Assembly: GCF_900110865.1 (NCBI RefSeq)
Contig: NZ_FOFD01000003.1
Coordinates: 186,001 to 250,000, forward strand
Length of the DNA stretch: 64,000 nucleotides
Direction of reading: 5' to 3'
DNA from: Natrinema salaciae
GTDB taxonomy: Archaea > Halobacteriota > Halobacteria > Halobacteriales > Natrialbaceae
The position numbers and the translations under genes were made by a program. Below the pieces are notes generated by a model. It saw nothing but the letters and a program-made list of their open reading frames with translations, did not search any database and had not been told where the DNA came from. This document shows, in pieces, positions 16,116-29,706 of the stretch (within the stretch, counting starts at the first letter, position 1; every line of letters starts with the position of its first letter).

Positions 16116-16844
16116 GTGCCCGCGTCCGACCCCGATACCGACACCGATACCGATATCGATACCAACCCCGACGCCGAATCCGATTCGGCGACCGCCGAAG
16201 CACCTTCGTATCCGACCAGCCGCAACGTCCTCGAGCCCGACTGCGCCCGCTGTCCCGCGCTGGCCGAGACCCGCGAGCGCATCTCCTGGGGAACCGGTCC
16301 CGAAGACGCGAGCATCGTCGTCGTCGGCGAAGCGCCCGGGTACGGCGACCCCGACGCCGACCGCTGGCGGGGCGGCAACTGGACCGGCAAGGCCTACACC
16401 TCCCGTCACTCCGGCCGGCGGATCCGGCGCATGCTCGAGGAGATCGGCCGCGGCGACGACGCGTACTACACGAACGCCGTGAAGTGTTTTCCCGCGAGCG
16501 CCGACGACCCGACGAGCAACCGCGAGCCCACGGCCGAGGAACGCGCGACCTGTCGAACGCACCTGCTGACCGAACTCGAGGAGATCGATCCCGCGGTCGT
16601 CCTGGCGACGGGGAAACACGCGACGAAGACCGTGCTCGCGGCCGAGGATCGCGAACTCGACGGCTTTCTCGACAGCGTGCTCGAACCCGTGCGCTGTGAG
16701 CGACTCGACGTGTGGCTCGTGCCGATCCTCCACCCCTCGTATCAGGACGTCTGGATCGGCCGGCTGGGGTACGAGCCGGCCGAGTACCTCGAGGCGGTCG
16801 GCGAGACGCTGGACCGACTCCGGGGACGCAGAGCCGGTAGATAA
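16116..16844 (+). CDS. Uracil-DNA glycosylase, family 4-like
   Basis: Removes uracil from DNA, starting base-excision repair. The 242-residue protein shows the family-4/5 layout: an N-terminal cysteine pair (CARC) and later cysteines (KCF, CRTH) in positions suited to a 4Fe-4S cluster, the motif GEAPGYGD, the NAVKCFP loop and the C-terminal LHPSY motif. The GTG start at 16116 is the first in frame; the first 30 residues are an Asp-Thr repeat encoded by a six-base microsatellite and are probably disordered, so a later start is possible. A relic of a tnpB gene lies directly upstream. A decayed fragment similar to this gene is found at 21703-21882. Confidence 0.88.
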   Translation: MPASDPDTDTDTDIDTNPDAESDSATAEAPSYPTSRNVLEPDCARCPALAETRERISWGTGPEDASIVVVGEAPGYGDPDADRWRGGNWTGKAYTSRHSGRRIRRMLEEIGRGDDAYYTNAVKCFPASADDPTSNREPTAEERATCRTHLLTELEEIDPAVVLATGKHATKTVLAAEDRELDGFLDSVLEPVRCERLDVWLVPILHPSYQDVWIGRLGYEPAEYLEAVGETLDRLRGRRAGR

Positions 16845-16969: not shown

Positions 16970-17137
16970 GTGCGGGGCCGAGTACGCTCCGACGAGGAGG
17001 GCGACGCAGCCCTCGAGGAGGCGACGTGGCGGGACCACTACGACGACGCGACTCGGGCAGTGTGGGTCGGACTTCTGAACGCCGTTTCGGATGGATCGGT
17101 TCGACCGCTGCTCACGGTCGGTACTACTCGAGAGTAG
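16970..17137 (+). CDS. Possible small protein or gene fragment
   Basis: A 55-residue frame from a GTG at 16970 to a TAG, very acidic and GC-rich at third positions (WRDHYDDATRAVWVGLLNAV in the middle), which looks like haloarchaeal coding sequence. Its last 14 bases overlap the end of the convergent flippase gene. No family recognised; it may be the C-terminal scrap of a lost gene. Confidence 0.3.
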   Translation: MRGRVRSDEEGDAALEEATWRDHYDDATRAVWVGLLNAVSDGSVRPLLTVGTTRE

Positions 17138-18695
17138 TGCTCTCGGCCTCGGTTCGGCGGAGCCGCCTGCAGATCGTATTCGACAGTGAGCCGATCGGAT
17201 CGGGGAACTCGGTGAGGATCTCGAGCAGCTCGAATACGCCGAGCGCGCCGACGCCAATCGCGGCGAGGAGGAAGAGTCCAAGTCCGAGCGGCGGGACGAT
17301 CAGGATCGAAACCGGAAGTGCGCCGACATATGGGACGGCGATCACGGAAGAGATCGCCGATTCGAGGGCGAAGATTGGAACTGCCGCGATGAGTGATGCA
17401 AGGGTGATACGGCCGATGCGTGCATCGGCAAGCGGATCGAATCCGATCTTCCGCGCACTCCAGACGTGGAAAACCGTCATCGATGCGTATCCACTACTCG
17501 TCGCGACTGCGGCCCCGTGCATCCCGTATCGAGGGATCAATAGCAGGTTGAGGACAAGATTGATGACCGCAGCAACACCGGTAGCCGCGATTGGATACCG
17601 CAACTCGCCTTTTCCTTGACTGATCGCGAGTATCGGGCGAGCGAGTGCGAAGCCGAGCGAACCGGGAAGCAACAGTAGCAACGGACCGACGGGTTCCATC
17701 CCGTAGCTCCAGTAGACCGGGATGACGTCCGCGGCGAGCGCGGCGATCCCGATACTCATCACTGCAGTGAGCAAGAACGTATATCTCGTTGCCCTCGCAG
17801 CGAGCTGTGATATCCGCTCCGTCTCCCCCTGTGACCAGAGTTCCGACGTCGAATGAACGAAGACCGTCTGGAGGACGAGGGGAGCGAACCAGAGGAACTC
17901 CGCGAACTCCAGTGCGGCTTTGTAGTAGCCGACCTGATCGCCCCCGATCCATCCCTGTAGCATGAGAATGTCGATGTGGTACAGCGACATCAGGAGGAAA
18001 ATGAGGGCGATCGACAGCGAGTTGAACGTCACCATCTCCATCCGAGGGAAGGTATCTGGTGGCTGATGGAAGACGTTCCGGAGAGAGTCGCGCCAGTGAA
18101 GGAGGAGGAGACCACCGACCGCAGCGAGCGCCGTTGCGACGATCTGGCCGATGATAGCGCCGATTACACCGGACCCAGTCGCAATGAGTGGCAACGCAAC
18201 GAGCGGAAAGGAGATCGTATAGAGGATCTTCAGTGGTTCGGAATACCGCTCGAGGCCGAGTCCCATCAGAGACTTGCGTGCGAACTCCCAGTACTGTGCC
18301 GTGATCACGAGCACGACGAGGAGGTAGAAGTAACTCGAAAACCGGGGTTCGAACACGGTTGCAAAGAAGCCACTGTAGGTCACGCCCGCAAGAACGATCG
18401 CCCCGCCGATAGCGAGAACCGTTGCAGTCCGGAGATAGAACCCGATGACGGTCGCTTTCCACCCGTCTTCGTGTCGATCTTCGGCGACGTATTTCCGAAC
18501 GCCATCGGAGATTCCAGCGCTCACGAAGATCATGAAGATGCCCTGAACGGCCATCACCGTCGCGTACTCGCCGAACTGCTCTGGGCCGAGCAATCGAGCG
18601 AGAAGCGGTTTCGATAGAAGTCCCACGACGAGCGCGATGAACTTGCTCGCCGAGACCGAAAGTATACCGCTTACAATACTACGATCCATGATCAA
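17124..18695 (-). CDS. Flippase of the polysaccharide transporter family (Wzx-like)
   Basis: An integral membrane protein of 523 residues with about 12-14 hydrophobic segments and the opening typical of the family (SASKFIALVVGLLSKPLLARL, then GPEQFGEYA). Such proteins flip lipid-linked glycans to the outside of the membrane. The start could be 18695 or the ATG at 18689. The gene uses more A/T-ending codons than the flanking genes, a sign often seen in surface-glycan loci. It is the last gene of a minus-strand group with a glycerophosphodiesterase, a cytidylyltransferase-like enzyme and a glycerophosphotransferase, which suggests its cargo may be a phosphoglycan. Confidence 0.88.
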   Translation of the reverse strand: MIMDRSIVSGILSVSASKFIALVVGLLSKPLLARLLGPEQFGEYATVMAVQGIFMIFVSAGISDGVRKYVAEDRHEDGWKATVIGFYLRTATVLAIGGAIVLAGVTYSGFFATVFEPRFSSYFYLLVVLVITAQYWEFARKSLMGLGLERYSEPLKILYTISFPLVALPLIATGSGVIGAIIGQIVATALAAVGGLLLLHWRDSLRNVFHQPPDTFPRMEMVTFNSLSIALIFLLMSLYHIDILMLQGWIGGDQVGYYKAALEFAEFLWFAPLVLQTVFVHSTSELWSQGETERISQLAARATRYTFLLTAVMSIGIAALAADVIPVYWSYGMEPVGPLLLLLPGSLGFALARPILAISQGKGELRYPIAATGVAAVINLVLNLLLIPRYGMHGAAVATSSGYASMTVFHVWSARKIGFDPLADARIGRITLASLIAAVPIFALESAISSVIAVPYVGALPVSILIVPPLGLGLFLLAAIGVGALGVFELLEILTEFPDPIGSLSNTICRRLRRTEAESTTLE

Positions 18696-18828
18696 ACCAT
18701 CGCGGTAGTATTGTCTTCATTCGAAAGAATCGGTCCAGAGACCGTGACCACAGGTATTTCGGGAACGATCTCGAGCACCTGTACCAAACGTCGGTACAAA
18801 CAACCGACTTATTACCCTATTGGTTTCG

Positions 18829-18840
18829 ATTATATAAATT
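18829..18840 (-). promoter_or_regulatory. AT-rich promoter-like element ahead of the flippase gene
   Basis: The gap 18696-18980 between the flippase and the glycerophosphodiesterase contains no gene. It holds ATTATATAAATT (18829-18840), which on the minus strand is a good archaeal TATA box, about 135 bases before the flippase start. A short inverted repeat GTACC/GGTAC (18781-18797) lies just downstream of it. The flippase may therefore have its own promoter. Confidence 0.45.
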
Positions 18841-18980
18841 GACCATTAGGGGTAGAGTAGAACGCTTTCAGGTACTAGCGAACGGGTGTAACTAGGTTGC
18901 CACGGCTTTGTCGATAATCAGCGCGCCATCGATCGACCCGAGCCGTCGGCCGTCGTACGACCGGTCCAACCGGCGCGTCG

Positions 18981-19682
18981 CTACGGCTGCTGTGGCTCCG
19001 CAATCCCCTCGATCGACGGCGGCGCGACGTCCCAGCGATCCGCAGTGACGCCGTCGACGCCGGCCTCGTGGAGGGCGCGCACGTCGTCGACGGTTCGCGC
19101 CGCCTTCCAGGCGATGACGTCGAGCCCGCGGTCGCGGGCGGCGGAGACGATGTCGGTGTCGACGCAGAGGTCGAAGTGGGGGAACACGTGCGTGCAGTCG
19201 AGATCGACGGCTCGCGAGAGGTTGCCGTCCGGCTCCTCCCCGAAGAGGAGGCCGTTCGGAACGTCCAGACAACTGGCTTCGACTTCCGCGACCGCCTCCG
19301 GGAGGAACGACGTGATGCGGACGTCGGCACCGGCCGCCATCGCGAGTTGCATCGCGTCCGCGGCGACGCCGGTCTCTTTGAGTTCGACCTGTACGGTCGT
19401 CTCGTTCGGCACGGCTCGCAACACCGACTCGAGGCGCGGGATCGATTCGCCCGACTCGAGTACGTCCAGTTCGCGGAGGGCGGCCCACGGCGTCTCCGCG
19501 ACCGGGCCGGCCGCGTCGGTGACGCGCTCGAGGGTTTCGTCGTGGAACACGACCAGTTCGCCCGATTCGCACCGCCGCACGTCGACCTCGACGGCGGGCA
19601 GCCGGCGGGCGGCCTCGCGGACGGCGAGGAGGGTGTTCTCCGGGAACTGCGCTGCACAGCCGCGATGGCCGATAATCTCCAT
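18981..19682 (-). CDS. Glycerophosphodiester phosphodiesterase
   Basis: Hydrolyses glycerophosphodiesters to an alcohol and glycerol phosphate. The 233 residues begin with the family pattern GHRGC...PENT, where His and Glu are catalytic, and continue with EVDVR and VFHDETLERVT, which supply the metal-binding Glu/Asp and the second catalytic His. There is no signal peptide, so it is cytoplasmic. Its neighbours handle activated alcohol phosphates, so it may recycle or trim glycerophosphate units. The gap to the gene upstream is 172 bases. Confidence 0.92.
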   Translation of the reverse strand: MEIIGHRGCAAQFPENTLLAVREAARRLPAVEVDVRRCESGELVVFHDETLERVTDAAGPVAETPWAALRELDVLESGESIPRLESVLRAVPNETTVQVELKETGVAADAMQLAMAAGADVRITSFLPEAVAEVEASCLDVPNGLLFGEEPDGNLSRAVDLDCTHVFPHFDLCVDTDIVSAARDRGLDVIAWKAARTVDDVRALHEAGVDGVTADRWDVAPPSIEGIAEPQQP

Positions 19683-19854
19683 CTACCGGGACCGCACCAG
19701 TCGACGGATATCAATATTCTGGTTTCGCGGCCTGATACGGTCGATATCCCCGAATGTCCCCGAGAACTGACTCCCGCGTCGGCCAACCAGTGTCGACGAC
19801 CGGCTCGACGGCAAACTCGCGGAACGAGCGTCCGACGCGGCCCTCGTTCGGCGA

Positions 19855-20535
19855 TCACGCACACCGAACCCGATCGGACGCGAGCCACGCTCGAGCCCGC
19901 TCGAGGTCGATCGGTCGGTTGATCTCGATGTGCCGGTCGGCCGGGATCGACACCGGTCGGGTCGGCGTCCGGGGGTAGACGCAGGGGTACCAGTCGTCCA
20001 GCCGCTCTCGGAGGGTTCGAATCGCCGCCGCCCGGTGGGTCCGGCTCACGATCCCGCATCCGGCGTGTCGATGGCCGTCGATGAGCCCGTAGGCCGTCAC
20101 GCGCCCCGACTCGTCCCAGCGAATCGCCGTCTCCGCGTCCTGAAGTCCCGGAATGCAGCCGACGAGGTTGAGACGAGCGTCGAGGTCGTCGAACGTCCCC
20201 GCGAGCCGTCCGAGGTCGCGCTCGTCGACGAGCACGTCGCCGTTCAGGATCAGCACGTCGTCGTCGACCCGTCTGAGCGCCAGCAGTAGCGACGCGGCGT
20301 TCTCGTAGCGGTCCCAGCCCTCGAGGACGATCGGGTCCTCGGGCTCGTACCTGTCGAGGACGGTCTCGTGGCGGTAGCCCAGCACGACGCTCGTTCCGTC
20401 CACGTGGGATTCGAGCAGCGCGCGCTGTCGGTCGTACAGCGTTCGGCCGTCGAACTCGAGGAAGGCTTTCGGGACGTCGTCGGTATAGCGCCCCATCCGT
20501 CGGCCGCGACCCGCCGCGAGGATCACGCCGCGCAT
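19855..20535 (-). CDS. Nucleotidyltransferase, cytidylyltransferase-like
   Basis: A 226-residue sugar- or alcohol-phosphate nucleotidyltransferase. The N-terminal MRGVILAAGRGRRMG is the nucleotide-binding loop, DVPKAFLEF contains the conserved lysine, and LNGDVLVDE carries the metal-binding Asp. The size and the short single domain resemble LicC-type phosphocholine cytidylyltransferases more than long glucose-1-phosphate enzymes. The start at 20535 overlaps the end of the upstream gene by 13 bases, so the two are translationally linked. With a CDP-glycerol-type transferase beside it, a role in making a CDP-alcohol donor is the natural inference; the true substrate is not visible. Confidence 0.85.
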   Translation of the reverse strand: MRGVILAAGRGRRMGRYTDDVPKAFLEFDGRTLYDRQRALLESHVDGTSVVLGYRHETVLDRYEPEDPIVLEGWDRYENAASLLLALRRVDDDVLILNGDVLVDERDLGRLAGTFDDLDARLNLVGCIPGLQDAETAIRWDESGRVTAYGLIDGHRHAGCGIVSRTHRAAAIRTLRERLDDWYPCVYPRTPTRPVSIPADRHIEINRPIDLERARAWLASDRVRCA

Positions 20536-21509
20536 CGGGTCACCTCCTCGGCCGCACGCTCGCCGGCCCGTCCGTCCATCGGGATGCCGAGGGACGCGAG
20601 CCACGACGCGCGGCGGCGTTGCACGGCCGTGGGTTCGCCGTTTCGGTACAGGTCGTCGACGAGGTCCAGGTCGATCGCGTCCGTCGTGACGCCGATCCGC
20701 GGCACGTCGCGGTCCGGTGCGTCGATGTCCGTCAACTGGATTAGCGGCCGGCCGGTGTGGAGCCACTCGGCGATCGAGCCGGAGTAATCCGAGACGAGCA
20801 CGTCGGATCGACGCATGCTCTCGGTTGGCGTCGCGGTCGCGTCGAAGACGACGTTCGGTAACTCGGCGATCCGGTCCCGACACGCTCGAGTAACCGAGCG
20901 GCCCGGCTCCTCGCGTCTGTCGGTCGGGTGGGGGCGAAAGAGCAGTTCGTAGGTCGTGTCGGCGAAGCACTCGACGACCGCCCGGGCGGTGTTCGCGTAC
21001 GCGCCCCGGCCCACCAGATAGTTGGTCGGGGCGTACAGCACCCGGCGCGCTCGGGGCGGCGGCGCACCGACCAGCGCGTCGGCCTCCGGGATGCCGACGA
21101 CGGCGATCCGCACGGTCGACGGTGCGGCGGCCCGGTACGCTTTCGCCCACCTCTCGCCCGGCGCGAGCGCGGTGGCGACGTGCTCGAGGATCGTCGCCGT
21201 CGTCACGGAGAGCTCTCCCCGACCGATCGACGCGCCGTGTCGCACGTGCACGAGCGGGTACTCCTCGTAGAACGTGAACCGATCGATGCCGAACCGGTGG
21301 TTGTAGACGACGACGGACGGGTCGATCGCTCGAACGTTGTCGTCGACCGCATCGGGGTCGGCCACCTCGAGTTCGTCGATGCGGTTGCTACAGCCCCGTG
21401 CGTCCGTTCGAACCGGGACGAACGCCGACGTAACGTCCACGTGACGGTCGATCGCTTCGAACGTCTTGCGCATGAACGGTCGCTCGATCGCGTACAGTAC
21501 CTCGACCAT
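20523..21509 (-). CDS. CDP-glycerol glycerophosphotransferase-like protein (TagB/TagF type)
   Basis: A 328-residue GT-B-like protein. The second half has the signature segments of the CDP-glycerol:poly(glycerophosphate) transferase family: LLFRPHP with the conserved His, a region around DATATPTESMRRSDVLVSDYSGS, where the SDYSG stretch binds the donor, and TGRPLIQL. These enzymes transfer glycerol phosphate onto a growing chain in wall teichoic acids. It has no signal or membrane span and would act at the inner membrane face. I use the ATG at 21509; a GTG at 21521 is also in frame. It overlaps the nucleotidyltransferase gene by 13 bases. Confidence 0.8.
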   Translation of the reverse strand: MVEVLYAIERPFMRKTFEAIDRHVDVTSAFVPVRTDARGCSNRIDELEVADPDAVDDNVRAIDPSVVVYNHRFGIDRFTFYEEYPLVHVRHGASIGRGELSVTTATILEHVATALAPGERWAKAYRAAAPSTVRIAVVGIPEADALVGAPPPRARRVLYAPTNYLVGRGAYANTARAVVECFADTTYELLFRPHPTDRREEPGRSVTRACRDRIAELPNVVFDATATPTESMRRSDVLVSDYSGSIAEWLHTGRPLIQLTDIDAPDRDVPRIGVTTDAIDLDLVDDLYRNGEPTAVQRRRASWLASLGIPMDGRAGERAAEEVTRCAA

Positions 21510-21521
21510 GCTGTGAACCAC

Positions 21522-22118
21522 CGACGAGCGCGCCGACCGGCGATTTCATCTCGTCGACGAAACAGAGCAACTGACTACGGATTCCGGCCGGGCCAAACGA
21601 TACGCGCACCTATGTCGAGTAGGAGGTTAACGTTTACAGTGCCGTTCGGACGGGGCCGTCGAGTCAGTCGGATCGCACGGCGCGCCGCGACCGCAGCCCC
21701 CGCCGGCAATCGGCCGGTACACGAGCGCGGTGAACTGCGTCCCCGCGAGCGGACGGCGACGCCGCGAGCGGGTATCCCCGGCCAGCCGCGAACCCACCGC
21801 CGAGGAACGCACGACCTACCGGACGCACCTGCCGACCGAACTCGAGGCGATCGGCGAGCGACTCGACACGCTGTGTGCGTGACGATACCGCGGATATCGG
21901 CACGGGCCGATGTCCGGTCGATGCGATACGACGGAGGAGCATTCTTTCGGCCCCAAAACTCCGGAGCGGACCGTGGCTGGGTTCGATGACTTCCGGTGGG
22001 GTCGGTCGACCTCAAGGCCGCACACGGACGCGGTAGGACGGTTGCGATCGCGGGACGACGAGCGGGCAGAGACTCACAAGCGACACACCCACCCGGTTCA
22101 GTCAGGAGTGTCGAACCG
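21522..22118. other. Gene-poor region with relics, about 600 bases
   Basis: No intact gene is visible on either strand. It contains the decayed UDG fragment at 21703-21882. The remainder, including 21883-22118, shows no coding signal, and I see no clear promoter or terminator in it. Confidence 0.55.
21703..21882 (+). pseudogene. Decayed uracil-DNA glycosylase fragment
   Basis: One continuous frame ending in TGA at 21880-21882 reads IGRYTSAVNCVPAS, then about 11 unrelated residues, then SREPTAEERTTYRTHLPTEL. It aligns with the UDG gene at 16116-16844 (IGR...YYTNAVKCFPAS and NREPTAEERATCRTHLLTEL) with a short deletion after IGR. Both the N-terminal active-site part and the C-terminal LHPSY part are missing, and there is no start. 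It is a remnant of a second copy, 5 kb from the intact gene. Confidence 0.82.
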
Positions 22119-25122: not shown

Positions 25123-26271
25123 TTACTGTACCGGGTGGTCGGCTTCGGCGTCCTCGAGGCGGCGGTTGTGCAACGCGTCGCCGGTGCGCCGGTCGAAGAC
25201 GTGGATCGCATCCTCGGGGAGGTCGACCGTGACCGCGTTACCGCTCTCGAGTCGGCGCATCCCGTCGACGGTCGCGATGAGCGAGACGTCGGCGTCGGCG
25301 AGATCCAGATAGACGACGTTGTCGTCGCCCATCGGCTCGACGACGTCGATCGTCGCCGACATCGTGTGATCCCCGGTCGCCGACGCGTCTCCGACTTCGA
25401 CGTCTTCGGGACGGATCCCGAGGACGAGGTCGGTCGCGTCGCCGAGATCGGCCGCGACGTCGGACGAGAGGGGGTACTGAAACCCCTCGTCCGCAGTCGC
25501 GAGCACGTCGCCGTCTCGCCGCCCGACGTCGAGGAAGTTCATCGAGGGGTCGCCGATGAAGTCGGCGACGAAGCGGTTCGCCGGCCGGTGGTAACACTCC
25601 AGCGGCGTCCCGACCTGCATCAGCCGCCCCTCGTTGAGGACGGCGATGCGATCCGACATCGTCATCGCCTCGGTCTGGTCGTGGGTGACGTAGATCGTCG
25701 TCACGCCGAGTTCCTGCTGGATCCGCTGGAGTTCGGTGCGCATCTGCGAGCGCAGTTTGGCGTCCAGGTTCGACAGCGGTTCGTCCATCAGGAAGACCTC
25801 CGGATCGCGGACGATCGCCCGCCCGAGCGCGACCCGCTGTTGCTGGCCGCCGGAGAGATCGCTCGGTTTCCGCTCGAGCAGGTCGCCGATACCCATCATC
25901 GTCGCCGTCTCCTCGACGCGGCTGTTCATCTCGTCGTCGGGGAGATCGGTCGATTCCTCGAGTCCGAAGCGCATGTTCTCCCGCACGGTCATGTGCGGGT
26001 ACAGCGCGTAGGACTGGAACACCATCGCCACGTTGCGGTCTTTGGGCTCGCGGTGTTCGATCGATTGGCCGTCGAGTCGGATCGAGCCCTCGGTGACCGT
26101 CTCGAGGCCGGCGACCATCCGCAGGGTCGTCGACTTCCCACAGCCCGAGGGACCAACGAGGACGAGAAACTCCCCGTCCTCGATGTCGATCGTTACGTCG
26201 TCGACGGCGACGATTTCGCCGTTGCTATCCTGAAACGTCTTCGTCACGCCGTCGATCGTCACTTCTGTCAT
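25123..26271 (-). CDS. Sugar ABC transporter ATP-binding protein (MalK/UgpC type)
   Basis: The energising subunit of a CUT1 sugar importer, 382 residues. It shows Walker A (GPSGCGKST), the signature LSGGQQQRVALGRAI, Walker B with VFLMDEPLSNLD, and the switch histidine in YVTHDQTEAMTMSDR. The C-terminal third (from about residue 240) is an OB/TOBE regulatory domain. Two such subunits would bind the two permeases encoded directly upstream. The start at 26271 (MTEVTIDGV) is 19 bases after the end of the permease gene. Confidence 0.95.
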   Translation of the reverse strand: MTEVTIDGVTKTFQDSNGEIVAVDDVTIDIEDGEFLVLVGPSGCGKSTTLRMVAGLETVTEGSIRLDGQSIEHREPKDRNVAMVFQSYALYPHMTVRENMRFGLEESTDLPDDEMNSRVEETATMMGIGDLLERKPSDLSGGQQQRVALGRAIVRDPEVFLMDEPLSNLDAKLRSQMRTELQRIQQELGVTTIYVTHDQTEAMTMSDRIAVLNEGRLMQVGTPLECYHRPANRFVADFIGDPSMNFLDVGRRDGDVLATADEGFQYPLSSDVAADLGDATDLVLGIRPEDVEVGDASATGDHTMSATIDVVEPMGDDNVVYLDLADADVSLIATVDGMRRLESGNAVTVDLPEDAIHVFDRRTGDALHNRRLEDAEADHPVQ

Positions 26272-26290
26272 CTGTCGTATCTCTCGTAGC

Positions 26291-27199
26291 TCATACGGTT
26301 GCACCTTTCGCGAACTGTTCTCCGAACGCGATGTAGACCAACAGCGTCGGCAGCGCCGCGATGAACGCGCCGGCCATCTGGACGTTGTACATACTCTGCA
26401 TCGAGCCGGCGAGCGCGTTCAGCTCCATCGTCACCACGAAGTTCTCCGGCGAGTTCAGGATGACGAGCGCGATCAGGAAGTCGTTCCAGATCTGGGTGAA
26501 CTGATAGATCAGCGTCACCGCGAACATCGGGATGGACAGCGGCAAGACGATGCGACGGTAGACCCGTCGCTCCGGTGCGCCGTCCAGCCGTGCCGCCTCG
26601 AGGATCTCGTCGTTGAGGTTCTGGTAGTACGATCGGAAGAGGATCGTACAGATCGGAATCCCGTAGGCGCCGTGGGTGATGATCAGCTCGAAGATACCGG
26701 TTCGGTCCGCCAGCGTCTCGCCGACGATCGGAATCAGGACGAGCGTGTGCTCGAGGCCGACCAGCGACCACCCCTGTCGCAGCGGGACGAGAACCGCCTG
26801 GTACGGGATGAAGATGGCGGCGAGCAGCAGCGTGACGACGGCGAGCTGGCCGCGCCACTCCATCTTCGTGAGGCCGAACGCCGTCATGCTCCCGAGCAGC
26901 GCCGAGATGATCGTCGCCGGGATGGCGACCGCGGCGCTGTTTACCATCGCGGGGCCGAGCCGCGAGAGCGCAGTCGACCACGGCTCGAGCGTCGCCGCGT
27001 CGGGCGACGGCGGGACGAAGGGAAGGGTCGTCGCGAACGTGTTCCCGCCCTTGATCGACGTCATCAGTCCGCTGATCAGCGGGACGAGGAAGAGGACGGC
27101 GATCGCAGCTAGCACCGCGTAGAGGCCGACACGCCGGTAGTTCAGCCGTTCGAACCGCGATTCCGTCGTTTCCGCCGGTCGTGATTGTGCGTTGCTCAT
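26291..27199 (-). CDS. Sugar ABC transporter permease (MalG type)
   Basis: A 302-residue inner-membrane permease with six hydrophobic segments and the EAA loop EAARLDGAPERRVYRRIVLPL, which docks to the ATPase. It pairs with the other permease of the operon to form the sugar channel. Its ATG overlaps the end of the upstream permease gene by 4 bases, so translation is coupled. Confidence 0.95.
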   Translation of the reverse strand: MSNAQSRPAETTESRFERLNYRRVGLYAVLAAIAVLFLVPLISGLMTSIKGGNTFATTLPFVPPSPDAATLEPWSTALSRLGPAMVNSAAVAIPATIISALLGSMTAFGLTKMEWRGQLAVVTLLLAAIFIPYQAVLVPLRQGWSLVGLEHTLVLIPIVGETLADRTGIFELIITHGAYGIPICTILFRSYYQNLNDEILEAARLDGAPERRVYRRIVLPLSIPMFAVTLIYQFTQIWNDFLIALVILNSPENFVVTMELNALAGSMQSMYNVQMAGAFIAALPTLLVYIAFGEQFAKGATV

Positions 27200-28341
27200 A
27201 GGTCACCTCGTCGGTACTGTGCGAACGCGTAGGGGGCGATCACGGCGAGCGCCAGGACGAACAGCACCATCGCAACCGCGGAACCGTACGCCCACTCGGG
27301 CTTTCCGGCGAACGCCTCGCGGTACATCATGATGCCGAGGATGTCGGCCGAAGGGCCCGGCTGACTGCCGCCGTAGATCACGTAGATGAAGTCGAACGCT
27401 TTCAGCGCGAAGACCATGAGCACGACCGTCGCGCCCATCGTCGCCGCGCGGAGTTGCGGGATGATCACGCGCCAGTAGAGCCGAACGGTGGTCGCGCCGT
27501 CGACGCGGGCCGCCTCGTAGTGATCGTCCGGAATGGCACGCAGCGCCGCGAGGTAGACGATCATGCAGTAGCCGCTGAACTGCCAGATGAGTGCGATGAT
27601 GACCGCCCAGAGCTTGAACCGGGGGTCGCCGAGCCAGTTGGGAGCGATCGCACCGAAGCTGATCGTCTTGAGTACCACGTTGATGACGCCGTCGTTGGCG
27701 TTGTACATCCACTTCCAGAAGATGGCGGTAACGACGAACGAGAGGCTCATCGGCAGCAGGTAAATCGTCCGAAAGCCGTTGCCGAAGCGGATCTCCCGGT
27801 CCATCAGGATCGCCAGGAAGAGCCCGACGGCTAGCGCGATGACGGTAAAGGCCACCATCAACACGAACGTGTTCCACGTCGCGTTGCGGAACGTGGGGTC
27901 CCCCAGGAGTTGGACGTACGTGTCGAACGAGATGTTCGAGTAGTTCGGGTCGCCTAGCCCGGACCAGTCGGTCAGCGATATCAGGAAGTTCCACCCGATC
28001 GCGCCGTAGACGAACGCGCCGACGAGGAGAAATCCGGGGAGCCAAAACGGGAGCGACCGCACGAACTCGCTCCGACGGAGGGCGTCGAGCGTCGATCCCG
28101 ACCGTCCGGGATCGGTCTCGTCCGATCGACCGAGACCGGACTCCGCGGCGTCGACGCCGCCGTCGGAGCGAAGCTCCGACGAGGGTCGCCTCGGACGGCT
28201 CGGCTCGCCGCCGTCGGCGCGAAGCTCCGACGAGGGTCGCGGTCTATCGGACCGCTCACCGCCGTCAGCGCGACGCCGATCGGACGAATCCGCGCCCGAA
28301 TCGGACGACTGTCGGAGGGAGCGCAGGAGTTGCGCGATCAT
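27196..28341 (-). CDS. Sugar ABC transporter permease (MalF type) with a long N-terminal tail
   Basis: A 381-residue permease. The channel part, from about residue 95, has six hydrophobic segments and the EAA loop EAARVDGATTVRLYWRVIIPQL (shown here in part). The first 90 residues are an unusual polar tail with two near-copies of DGGE.SxRPxPSSELR, encoded by palindromic direct repeats (28162-28231); most relatives start close to the first membrane helix. A downstream ATG or GTG start is possible but none is obvious. It lies 30 bases after the binding-protein gene. Confidence 0.92.
   Translation of the reverse strand: MIAQLLRSLRQSSDSGADSSDRRRADGGERSDRPRPSSELRADGGEPSRPRRPSSELRSDGGVDAAESGLGRSDETDPGRSGSTLDALRRSEFVRSLPFWLPGFLLVGAFVYGAIGWNFLISLTDWSGLGDPNYSNISFDTYVQLLGDPTFRNATWNTFVLMVAFTVIALAVGLFLAILMDREIRFGNGFRTIYLLPMSLSFVVTAIFWKWMYNANDGVINVVLKTISFGAIAPNWLGDPRFKLWAVIIALIWQFSGYCMIVYLAALRAIPDDHYEAARVDGATTVRLYWRVIIPQLRAATMGATVVLMVFALKAFDFIYVIYGGSQPGPSADILGIMMYREAFAGKPEWAYGSAVAMVLFVLALAVIAPYAFAQYRRGDL
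28162..28231. repeat. Palindromic direct repeats in the permease N-terminus
   Basis: The element GTCGGAGC-GAA-GCTCCGAC (28162-28180) is repeated with one mismatch as GTCGGCGC-GAA-GCTCCGAC (28213-28231), each followed by GAGGGTCGC; a third degenerate unit follows near 28262. The arms are identical to the palindrome found inside ileS at 13428-13446. Confidence 0.75.
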
Positions 28342-28371
28342 CTGTTCGAAACACCGTGTCGGTGACTCATC

Positions 28372-29706
28372 TTACTCGAGTGCGTTGACGATACCGTCGT
28401 AGGCTTCGTCGGCGTCCCAGTTTTCGGCCATTGCCGTCATGGCGCTCTCGACGTCCGACTGCTGACCGGGGGTAAACGCCAGTCCGTGTGCCATCGACGG
28501 CGGCTGCGCGTCGGAGGACTGGAACTGCTCGATCTGACGCTGGTGGAAGTCGGTGAACTCCCCGGTCTCGACGTCGTTACGCGGCGGGATCGATCCCTTC
28601 TGCTGGTTGAACCGCCGCTGTGCGTCCGCCGTCCCCACGTACTGCAGGAACGCGAGCGTCGCGTTCGGCGACGGGTTGTACTTCGGGAAGACGAACGAGT
28701 CCATGTTCAGCGCGTACTGGCCGTCCGTACCCGGGAACGGGATGTAGTCCCAGTCGTCCTCGAACTCGAACCCGTCCTCGCCGAGGTACTGCCCGGCGGC
28801 CCAGTCGCCGTTGTGGTGGAACGCCGCGTCGCCGCTGATAACGCCGCCGTTGGCCTCGTCCCACGCGACGGAGCTCGCATCGCCGGGGAAGTACTCCGAG
28901 AATTCGACGACCGTCTCGAGCGAACTGCGGACGGTCTCCTCGTTGCCCGAGACGTCGCCGCCGATAACCGACTCGTAGGTGTCCATGCCGCCCTCGGCCA
29001 GCAGCGTCATCGCCCACAACTGCACCATCATGAACGTGTCCGTCGACTGTGCGAAGCCGGTGTAGCCGGCGTCGTCGACGGCCGAGAGCGCGTCGGCGAA
29101 GTCGCTCGGACTCCCGAGGGACTCGGGGTCGACGCCCGCGTCTTCGAGCACCGACACGTTGTAGAACACGTTGTTGAGCCGGTGGATGTTGATCGGGACC
29201 GCGTAGTAGGTCCCGTCGATCTGGGCCTGATCCTCGGGGCCCTGGAGGTACGCGTCCTGCATATCGCTCTTCCAGACGTGTTCGCCGATGTCGAACAGGA
29301 GGTCGTCGTTGGTGTAGGTCGTCAACGCCTGGCCGGGCCAGATCTGGAACGTACTCGGCGGGTCGTTGTCGACCACGCGGCTCCGAACGTCCGTCTCGAG
29401 CGCACTGCCGCCCCCACCGGGCGAGTCCTGCAGTTCGTAGTCGATATCGGGGTGTTCCTCCTCGAATCCCGACATGAGAGCGGCGAGCGCGTCGGCCTCG
29501 CCACCCGCGGTCCACCAGTGACCGATCTCGAGCGTCTCGTACTCGCTCTCCTCGAGATCGTCGTCGAGGGCATCCTCGAGCGATTCAGCGGCCGATCCCC
29601 CACCACCGAGGCAGCCGGCGAGCGCGAGCCCACCAGCGGCACCCATCGCACCGAGAACGCGACGCCGATGCAGCATCGCGTCCGTAATATCATCGTTCTG
29701 TGACAT
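28372..29706 (-). CDS. Sugar ABC transporter substrate-binding lipoprotein
   Basis: A 444-residue extracellular binding protein of the CUT1 family. The N-terminus has a twin-arginine motif (HRRRVLGAMG) and a lipobox (LALAGC), so it is exported folded by Tat and anchored by lipid on the cysteine (near residue 33). A short acidic linker leads to the two-lobed binding fold, with typical pieces such as EIGHWWTAGGEADALAAL near the start and FVFPKYNPSPNATLAFLQYV near the end. It is the first gene of the four-gene importer; the sugar is not known. Confidence 0.95.
   Translation of the reverse strand: MSQNDDITDAMLHRRRVLGAMGAAGGLALAGCLGGGGSAAESLEDALDDDLEESEYETLEIGHWWTAGGEADALAALMSGFEEEHPDIDYELQDSPGGGGSALETDVRSRVVDNDPPSTFQIWPGQALTTYTNDDLLFDIGEHVWKSDMQDAYLQGPEDQAQIDGTYYAVPINIHRLNNVFYNVSVLEDAGVDPESLGSPSDFADALSAVDDAGYTGFAQSTDTFMMVQLWAMTLLAEGGMDTYESVIGGDVSGNEETVRSSLETVVEFSEYFPGDASSVAWDEANGGVISGDAAFHHNGDWAAGQYLGEDGFEFEDDWDYIPFPGTDGQYALNMDSFVFPKYNPSPNATLAFLQYVGTADAQRRFNQQKGSIPPRNDVETGEFTDFHQRQIEQFQSSDAQPPSMAHGLAFTPGQQSDVESAMTAMAENWDADEAYDGIVNALE

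Follow-up and report, generated by a model that had tools for sequence, protein, structure and literature searches.

Known donors of the TagF/TagB/TarL enzymes (PF04464) are cytidine diphosphate (CDP)-glycerol and CDP-ribitol (TagF, TarL), and characterised TagF-type enzymes use lipid- or glycan-linked acceptors. The best-known cases of alcohol phosphate activation with CDP are bacterial teichoic acids and capsules. In archaea, homologues of teichoic-acid genes were noted in 2010 in the pseudomurein-walled methanogen Methanobrevibacter ruminantium (PMC2812497; also PMC5816558), and classical PF04464 proteins are found in many archaea, other haloarchaea included. A further parallel comes from the ceramide diphosphoglycerate pathway of Caulobacter, proposed by analogy to TagD/TagF, in which a CDP-linked small acid alcohol serves a lipid head group; its cytidylyltransferase CpgD uses phosphoglycerate and shares the fold of LicC/PntC (PMC12275187). 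Here we analyze a gene set in a 64,000-nucleotide stretch of Natrinema salaciae DNA (assembly GCF_900110865.1, contig NZ_FOFD01000003.1, positions 186,001 to 250,000; hereafter the window), which comprises, in order on the minus strand, gpt, ntp and gdpd (together the cassette) and then a Wzx/MurJ-like flippase gene. All four open reading frames were judged real, and their order agrees with an earlier note on this DNA, which had read them as one teichoic-acid-like set for activation, transfer, trimming and export of an alcohol phosphate.

A co-inherited and mobile three-gene unit

Within the family of the window, gpt is present in 22 of 125 genomes, namely the window's own and 21 others that carry it at 79-87% identity, and is lacking from the remaining ones. 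All 21 family relatives, whose neighborhoods were fetched, harbor gpt-ntp-gdpd in the same order, flanked in 18 of them by IleS and uracil-DNA glycosylase (UDG) on one side, and by HIT and a prepilin-peptidase-like gene on the other. A draw of 391 genomes of the class yielded gpt in 31, 14 of which belong to other families (55-77% identity). The triad also occurs, identically ordered, at 19/19 named haloarchaeal loci, i.e., those of Natrinema, Haloterrigena, Natronorubrum, Haloarcula, Haladaptatus, Halorussus, Halorientalis, Halobaculum, Halomicrococcus, and less defined relatives. Because this order is conserved in the 21 family relatives and at the 19 named loci, the grouping of gpt, ntp, and gdpd is not due to chance. 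Distances between the proteins correlate at 0.96-0.98 among the three genes (30 loci). In the window, the start of ntp lies inside the end of gpt, an overlap pointed out before, and its extent of 13 bp is kept in 28 of the 29 loci measured. The three genes are thus a co-evolving, co-inherited unit.

The cassette is not a fixed part of these genomes. Among 20 sister genomes that lack gpt, 19 have HIT adjoining UDG (within the fetched stretch), with some UDG copies broken, and in the sister genome G053 a gdpd relic of 29 residues that shares 90% identity with the gdpd of a relative lies between UDG and HIT (L111 2655-2741). The empty sites and the relic indicate that the cassette was once present and has been lost at least once, and that it is dispensable. 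The relic stands beside a short ORF for a predicted membrane protein. Furthermore, the Haloarcula rara copy branches within the family clade, amid other flanking genes, and cassette genes of Haladaptatus and Halobaculum are located on plasmids of 196-816 kb (megaplasmids), with chromosomal copies elsewhere. This nesting and the plasmid copies indicate transfer as a unit. The cassette is therefore a mobile, dispensable module, gained and lost as a unit. A scan of viral contigs revealed no relative, and a viral origin was rejected on this basis. Weak gpt-like matches, of a length that allows no interpretation, were obtained in L098 and L114.

The flippase gene (17124..18689, or 18695, minus strand) does not share this history. 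It lies ~290 bp beyond gdpd, scores 52.5 bits against Polysacc_synt (Pfam) and is found beside no other cassette copy, neither in the neighborhoods of the 21 family relatives nor at the 19 named loci. Of the 125 family genomes, 95 carry relatives at E <= 1e-60, often more than one; the nearest relative, 82% identical, belongs to a genome without gpt (G056). The 17-19 kb stretch of the window is lower in GC (58.5%) than its surroundings. Being absent from other loci and of a generic family, the flippase was rejected as a fourth cassette member; it is a bystander, a strain-specific neighbor. Of the four-gene set proposed earlier, three genes thus hold together across haloarchaea, and the suggested comparison of gene order in other haloarchaea returned these three without the flippase.

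Predicted activities of the cassette proteins

The gpt gene (20523..21509, minus strand, ATG start) encodes a predicted TagF/TagB-type CDP-alcohol phosphotransferase of 328 aa with a GT-B fold. PF04464 is its sole Pfam match, at a borderline 22.2 bits that nevertheless exceeds the curated cut-off of 22.1; the copy in G146 reaches 36.6 bits. Its AlphaFold model (predicted local distance difference test, pLDDT, 87.6) matches TagF best (3l7k; Z 21.3, 303 residues, 3.2 Å) over the full length of gpt, followed by the TagF-like capsule polymerase Cps3D and TarL. As a profile search of the PDB with gpt alone gave chance matches only, residues were mapped onto TagF via classical archaeal PF04464 proteins, with TagF positions counted on the printed alignment. 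In this mapping, gpt H91 aligns with TagF H444, and R192/H194 with R582/H584; all three gpt residues are invariant across 18 gpt sequences. The structures 3l7j and 3l7m, judged by sequences or titles, are variants of the two TagF histidines. The PT, RxH, and SDYS motifs are likewise common to gpt and TagF/TagB/TarL. Unlike TagF, whose catalytic domain (352-719) is preceded by an extra N-terminal region, gpt lacks such a region, and its cassette of three genes includes no other tag/tar gene. Hence, gpt has the modeled fold and the catalytic residues of TagF, and CDP-polyol transfer is its predicted activity.

The product of ntp (19855..20535, minus strand, 226 aa) is a LicC/PntC-like nucleotidyltransferase, predicted to act as a cytidine triphosphate (CTP):alcohol-phosphate cytidylyltransferase. 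It scores 59.3 bits against NTP_transf_3 (Pfam) and displays a GT-A-like nucleotidyltransferase fold with G-x-G-x-R and P-K motifs and several invariant aromatic residues. The best solved match of its profile is LicC, a CTP:phosphocholine cytidylyltransferase (E 9.5e-11), which bears out the label "LicC-like" given to this gene before; a sugar nucleotidyltransferase, PntC, and an inositol-1-phosphate cytidylyltransferase (IPCT) come next. In structural comparison the model matches PntC best, by a modest margin (Z 24.0; LicC, Z 21.6). In the printed alignments, an N-x-x-S motif is shared by ntp, LicC, PntC, and IPCT, and is missing from the sugar-1-phosphate enzymes 5z09 and 2ggo, and for this reason the evidence favors CTP and an alcohol phosphate as substrates without proving them. 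PntC and CpgD are same-fold relatives of LicC, and the comparison of the cassette with the Caulobacter pathway, which places phosphoglycerate on a bacterial sphingolipid, covered CpgD. The gene that ntp overlaps is of the TagF type and not licD or an aminotransferase gene.

The third gene, gdpd (18981..19682, minus strand), encodes a glycerophosphodiester phosphodiesterase of 233 aa that scores 101.3 bits against GDPD (PF03009; Pfam), matches solved GDPDs down to E 1.8e-31 and keeps all catalytic motifs of the GlpQ/UgpQ family, with HRG, PENT, E-x-D-V, and HD being invariant (E32/D34, H47). In contrast to that family, gdpd is here the regular partner of a TagF-type transferase. Its N-terminus opens directly with the catalytic strand and HRG motif, leaving no visible signal sequence, and the protein looks cytosolic. 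An AT-rich element (CCAGAATATTGAT, 19708..19720, minus strand) lies ~27-36 nt before the gdpd start, and similar elements precede gdpd in the printed intergenic sequences of 12 relatives. Owing to this conserved element ~30 nt ahead of the start, gdpd may have its own promoter. Public records label the three proteins "CDP-glycerol glycerophosphotransferase family protein", "NTP transferase domain-containing protein", and "glycerophosphodiester phosphodiesterase".

Proposed function and alternatives

Taken as a whole, gpt-ntp-gdpd is, in our estimate, rather probably a portable haloarchaeal module with which a CDP-alcohol is made, an alcohol phosphate transferred and a phosphodiester cleaved. 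In this scheme, ntp would make a CDP-alcohol from CTP and an alcohol phosphate, glycerol phosphate being the likeliest one, and from this CDP-alcohol the single-domain gpt would move the alcohol-phosphate group to an acceptor hydroxyl. The acceptor would be something general to haloarchaea, such as a membrane glycolipid, a dolichol-linked or protein glycan precursor, or a small solute, and gdpd, or in some lineages a neighboring hydrolase of the endonuclease/exonuclease/phosphatase (EEP) family, would act in the cytosol to cleave the phosphodiester, allowing turnover or editing. Glycerol phosphate appears the most likely transferred group by analogy, given the PF04464 precedent and the GDPD partner. 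The three genes being a co-inherited set, the activation, transfer, and hydrolysis chemistry that the earlier note proposed for an archaeon finds support. More tentatively, we consider it possible, though short of probable, that haloarchaea attach (glycerol) phosphate to a surface glycan, an archaeal lipid, or a solute via CDP-glycerol made by a LicC-type enzyme, in a previously undescribed pathway that spreads as a three-gene module.

Several observations weigh against the proposed module. At locus L062, gpt occurs without ntp or gdpd nearby, and a replacement cytidylyltransferase beside it was considered and rejected, the sequence of the neighbor being unlike one. The gdpd gene is missing at the Halobaculum plasmid loci and at two further f4 loci; at most gdpd-less loci, gpt is instead preceded by an EEP-family gene. 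The cassette loci show no consistent linkage to an acceptor or glycan gene. Structural matches leave room for sugar chemistry, with GlmU and UDP-glucose pyrophosphorylases about 2 Z or less behind PntC and on a par with LicC for the ntp model (GlmU and LicC near Z 21-22), and UDP-GlcNAc 2-epimerases, which share the GT-B fold, close behind TagF for gpt (Z 19.7). Gene structure, folds, conserved catalytic residues, co-inheritance, and transfer and loss as a unit are observed; CTP as the nucleotide, glycerol as the alcohol, and transfer to an acceptor are what we infer from them.

The sugar-like matches might mean that ntp transfers uridylyl or thymidylyl groups to sugar-1-phosphates and that gpt acts as an epimerase or sugar transferase, both serving ordinary surface-glycan synthesis, as GlmU-type structures score near PntC and LicC and the epimerases come next after the TagF group. 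This is highly improbable in our view: PF04464 is the only Pfam family that gpt matches and its cut-off is reached, the catalytic residues of TagF are kept, and ntp carries the N-x-x-S motif that the printed sugar enzymes lack. A module of the same design might instead handle an alcohol other than glycerol, such as choline, ethanolamine, inositol, glycerate, or aminoethylphosphonate. The nearest solved relatives of ntp use phosphocholine (LicC), aminoethylphosphonate (PntC), and inositol-1-phosphate, its invariant aromatic residues also count in favor, and the same-fold CpgD takes phosphoglycerate (PMC12275187). The known PF04464 donors, however, are CDP-glycerol and CDP-ribitol, and a glycerophosphodiesterase as third gene points to glycerol, which makes another alcohol unlikely. 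We give a similarly low probability to the cassette making and breaking a soluble phosphodiester, e.g., a glycerophospho-sugar or glycerophospho-inositol, as an anionic osmolyte or phosphate store. All cassette proteins look cytosolic, no transmembrane or export gene is conserved alongside, Halobaculum plasmid copies lie near trehalose and inositol phosphate genes, and CDP-1-glycerol is named as a precursor of archaeal glycerophosphoinositol (PMC8262930). Yet the osmolyte-gene linkage is confined to Halobaculum, and the lipid- or glycan-linked acceptors of characterised TagF-type enzymes speak for another kind of acceptor.

An archaeal teichoic-acid-like polymer made by gpt and ntp, with gdpd as trimming enzyme and the adjacent flippase as exporter, would suit the gene order, the families, and the TagF fold, but is improbable. 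The flippase, of a generic family, accompanies no other cassette copy, gdpd has no visible signal sequence, and gpt is without the N-terminal part that precedes the TagF catalytic domain. Moreover, searches of the genome returned 0 matches to TagA/WecG (PF03808) and 0 to the LCP ligase (PF03816), and its best score for a TagD-type glycerol-3-phosphate cytidylyltransferase (TIGR01518) was 40.6 bits against a cut-off of 165.4, with B. subtilis controls positive in all three cases. No dedicated exporter is linked to the cassette, the ABC exporter TagGH not having been searched genome-wide, nor is the cassette accompanied by a glycosyltransferase, exporter, or anchor gene. Although its chemistry resembles teichoic-acid priming, the cassette is not a wall-teichoic-acid pathway, since TagA/WecG, LCP, a TagD above cut-off, and traveling exporter or anchor genes are all missing. 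The teichoic-acid-like pathway of the earlier note is therefore not borne out, and neither is export of its product, given a strain-specific flippase and an apparently cytosolic gdpd. That such a pathway in an archaeon would be new was also too strong a statement in light of the M. ruminantium homologues (PMC2812497) and of classical PF04464 proteins in many archaea. Those methanogen genes are a conceptual precedent in which the three-gene cassette was not described, and searches of open-licence papers for haloarchaeal teichoic acid or glycerophosphotransferase returned no description of the cassette as a unit, which appears undescribed.

If the proposed module is real, haloarchaea modify an envelope component or a solute via CDP-activated alcohol phosphates. 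Some cassette-bearing genera are culturable, so that the product can be searched for directly by 31P nuclear magnetic resonance and mass spectrometry, and sister species, in which the cassette is patchily present or absent in a syntenic context, provide natural wild-type/null pairs.

Related gene pairings and neighboring features

Comparable pairings occur elsewhere. In the haloarchaeal genomes G141 and G143, a classical TagF-like PF04464 gene, a GDPD gene, and an NTP_transf_3-HAD fusion follow each other in a row, and in G099 a PF04464 gene has an ntp-like sequence immediately in front of it. On a Fermentibacteraceae contig (L094 2732-6804), an NTP_transf_3 gene nearest to inositol-1-phosphate cytidylyltransferases overlaps the first of three tandem PF04464 genes, with a GT9 heptosyltransferase gene on one side of the run and a lipid A acyltransferase gene on the other. 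Because these families pair repeatedly, a relationship of donor maker and transferase is supported. The sets of TagF-like, GDPD, and NTP transferase-HAD phosphatase genes at L137 5741-9582 and L138 5680-9520 are arguably more teichoic-like than that of the window.

Halobaculum plasmid copies (L148 8813-16637, L147 470-11637) lie near genes for trehalose-6-phosphate synthase/phosphatase or inositol-3-phosphate synthase, and also near stress-type genes (CBS, Dps, dodecin). A general linkage to osmolyte genes was rejected, as trehalose and inositol genes were found near Halobaculum copies only.

Upstream of gpt, a TGTAAACGTTAACC-like element (21625..21638, minus strand) at ~115-130 nt may represent a promoter or operator; related sequence is found upstream of gpt in several relatives. 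Further out, a degenerate UDG-like fragment (21709-21852, plus strand; 57% over 54 aa) lies across the cassette from the UDG gene (16116-16844). Its interpretation as an insertion scar was rejected, the fragment being seen in the window genome only. Beyond the prepilin-peptidase-like gene, the window contains an ABC transporter set of sugar or glycerol-3-phosphate type (25123-29706, minus strand), whose UgpC-like ATPase scores 452.6 bits against a cut-off of 432 and which is near only some cassette copies.

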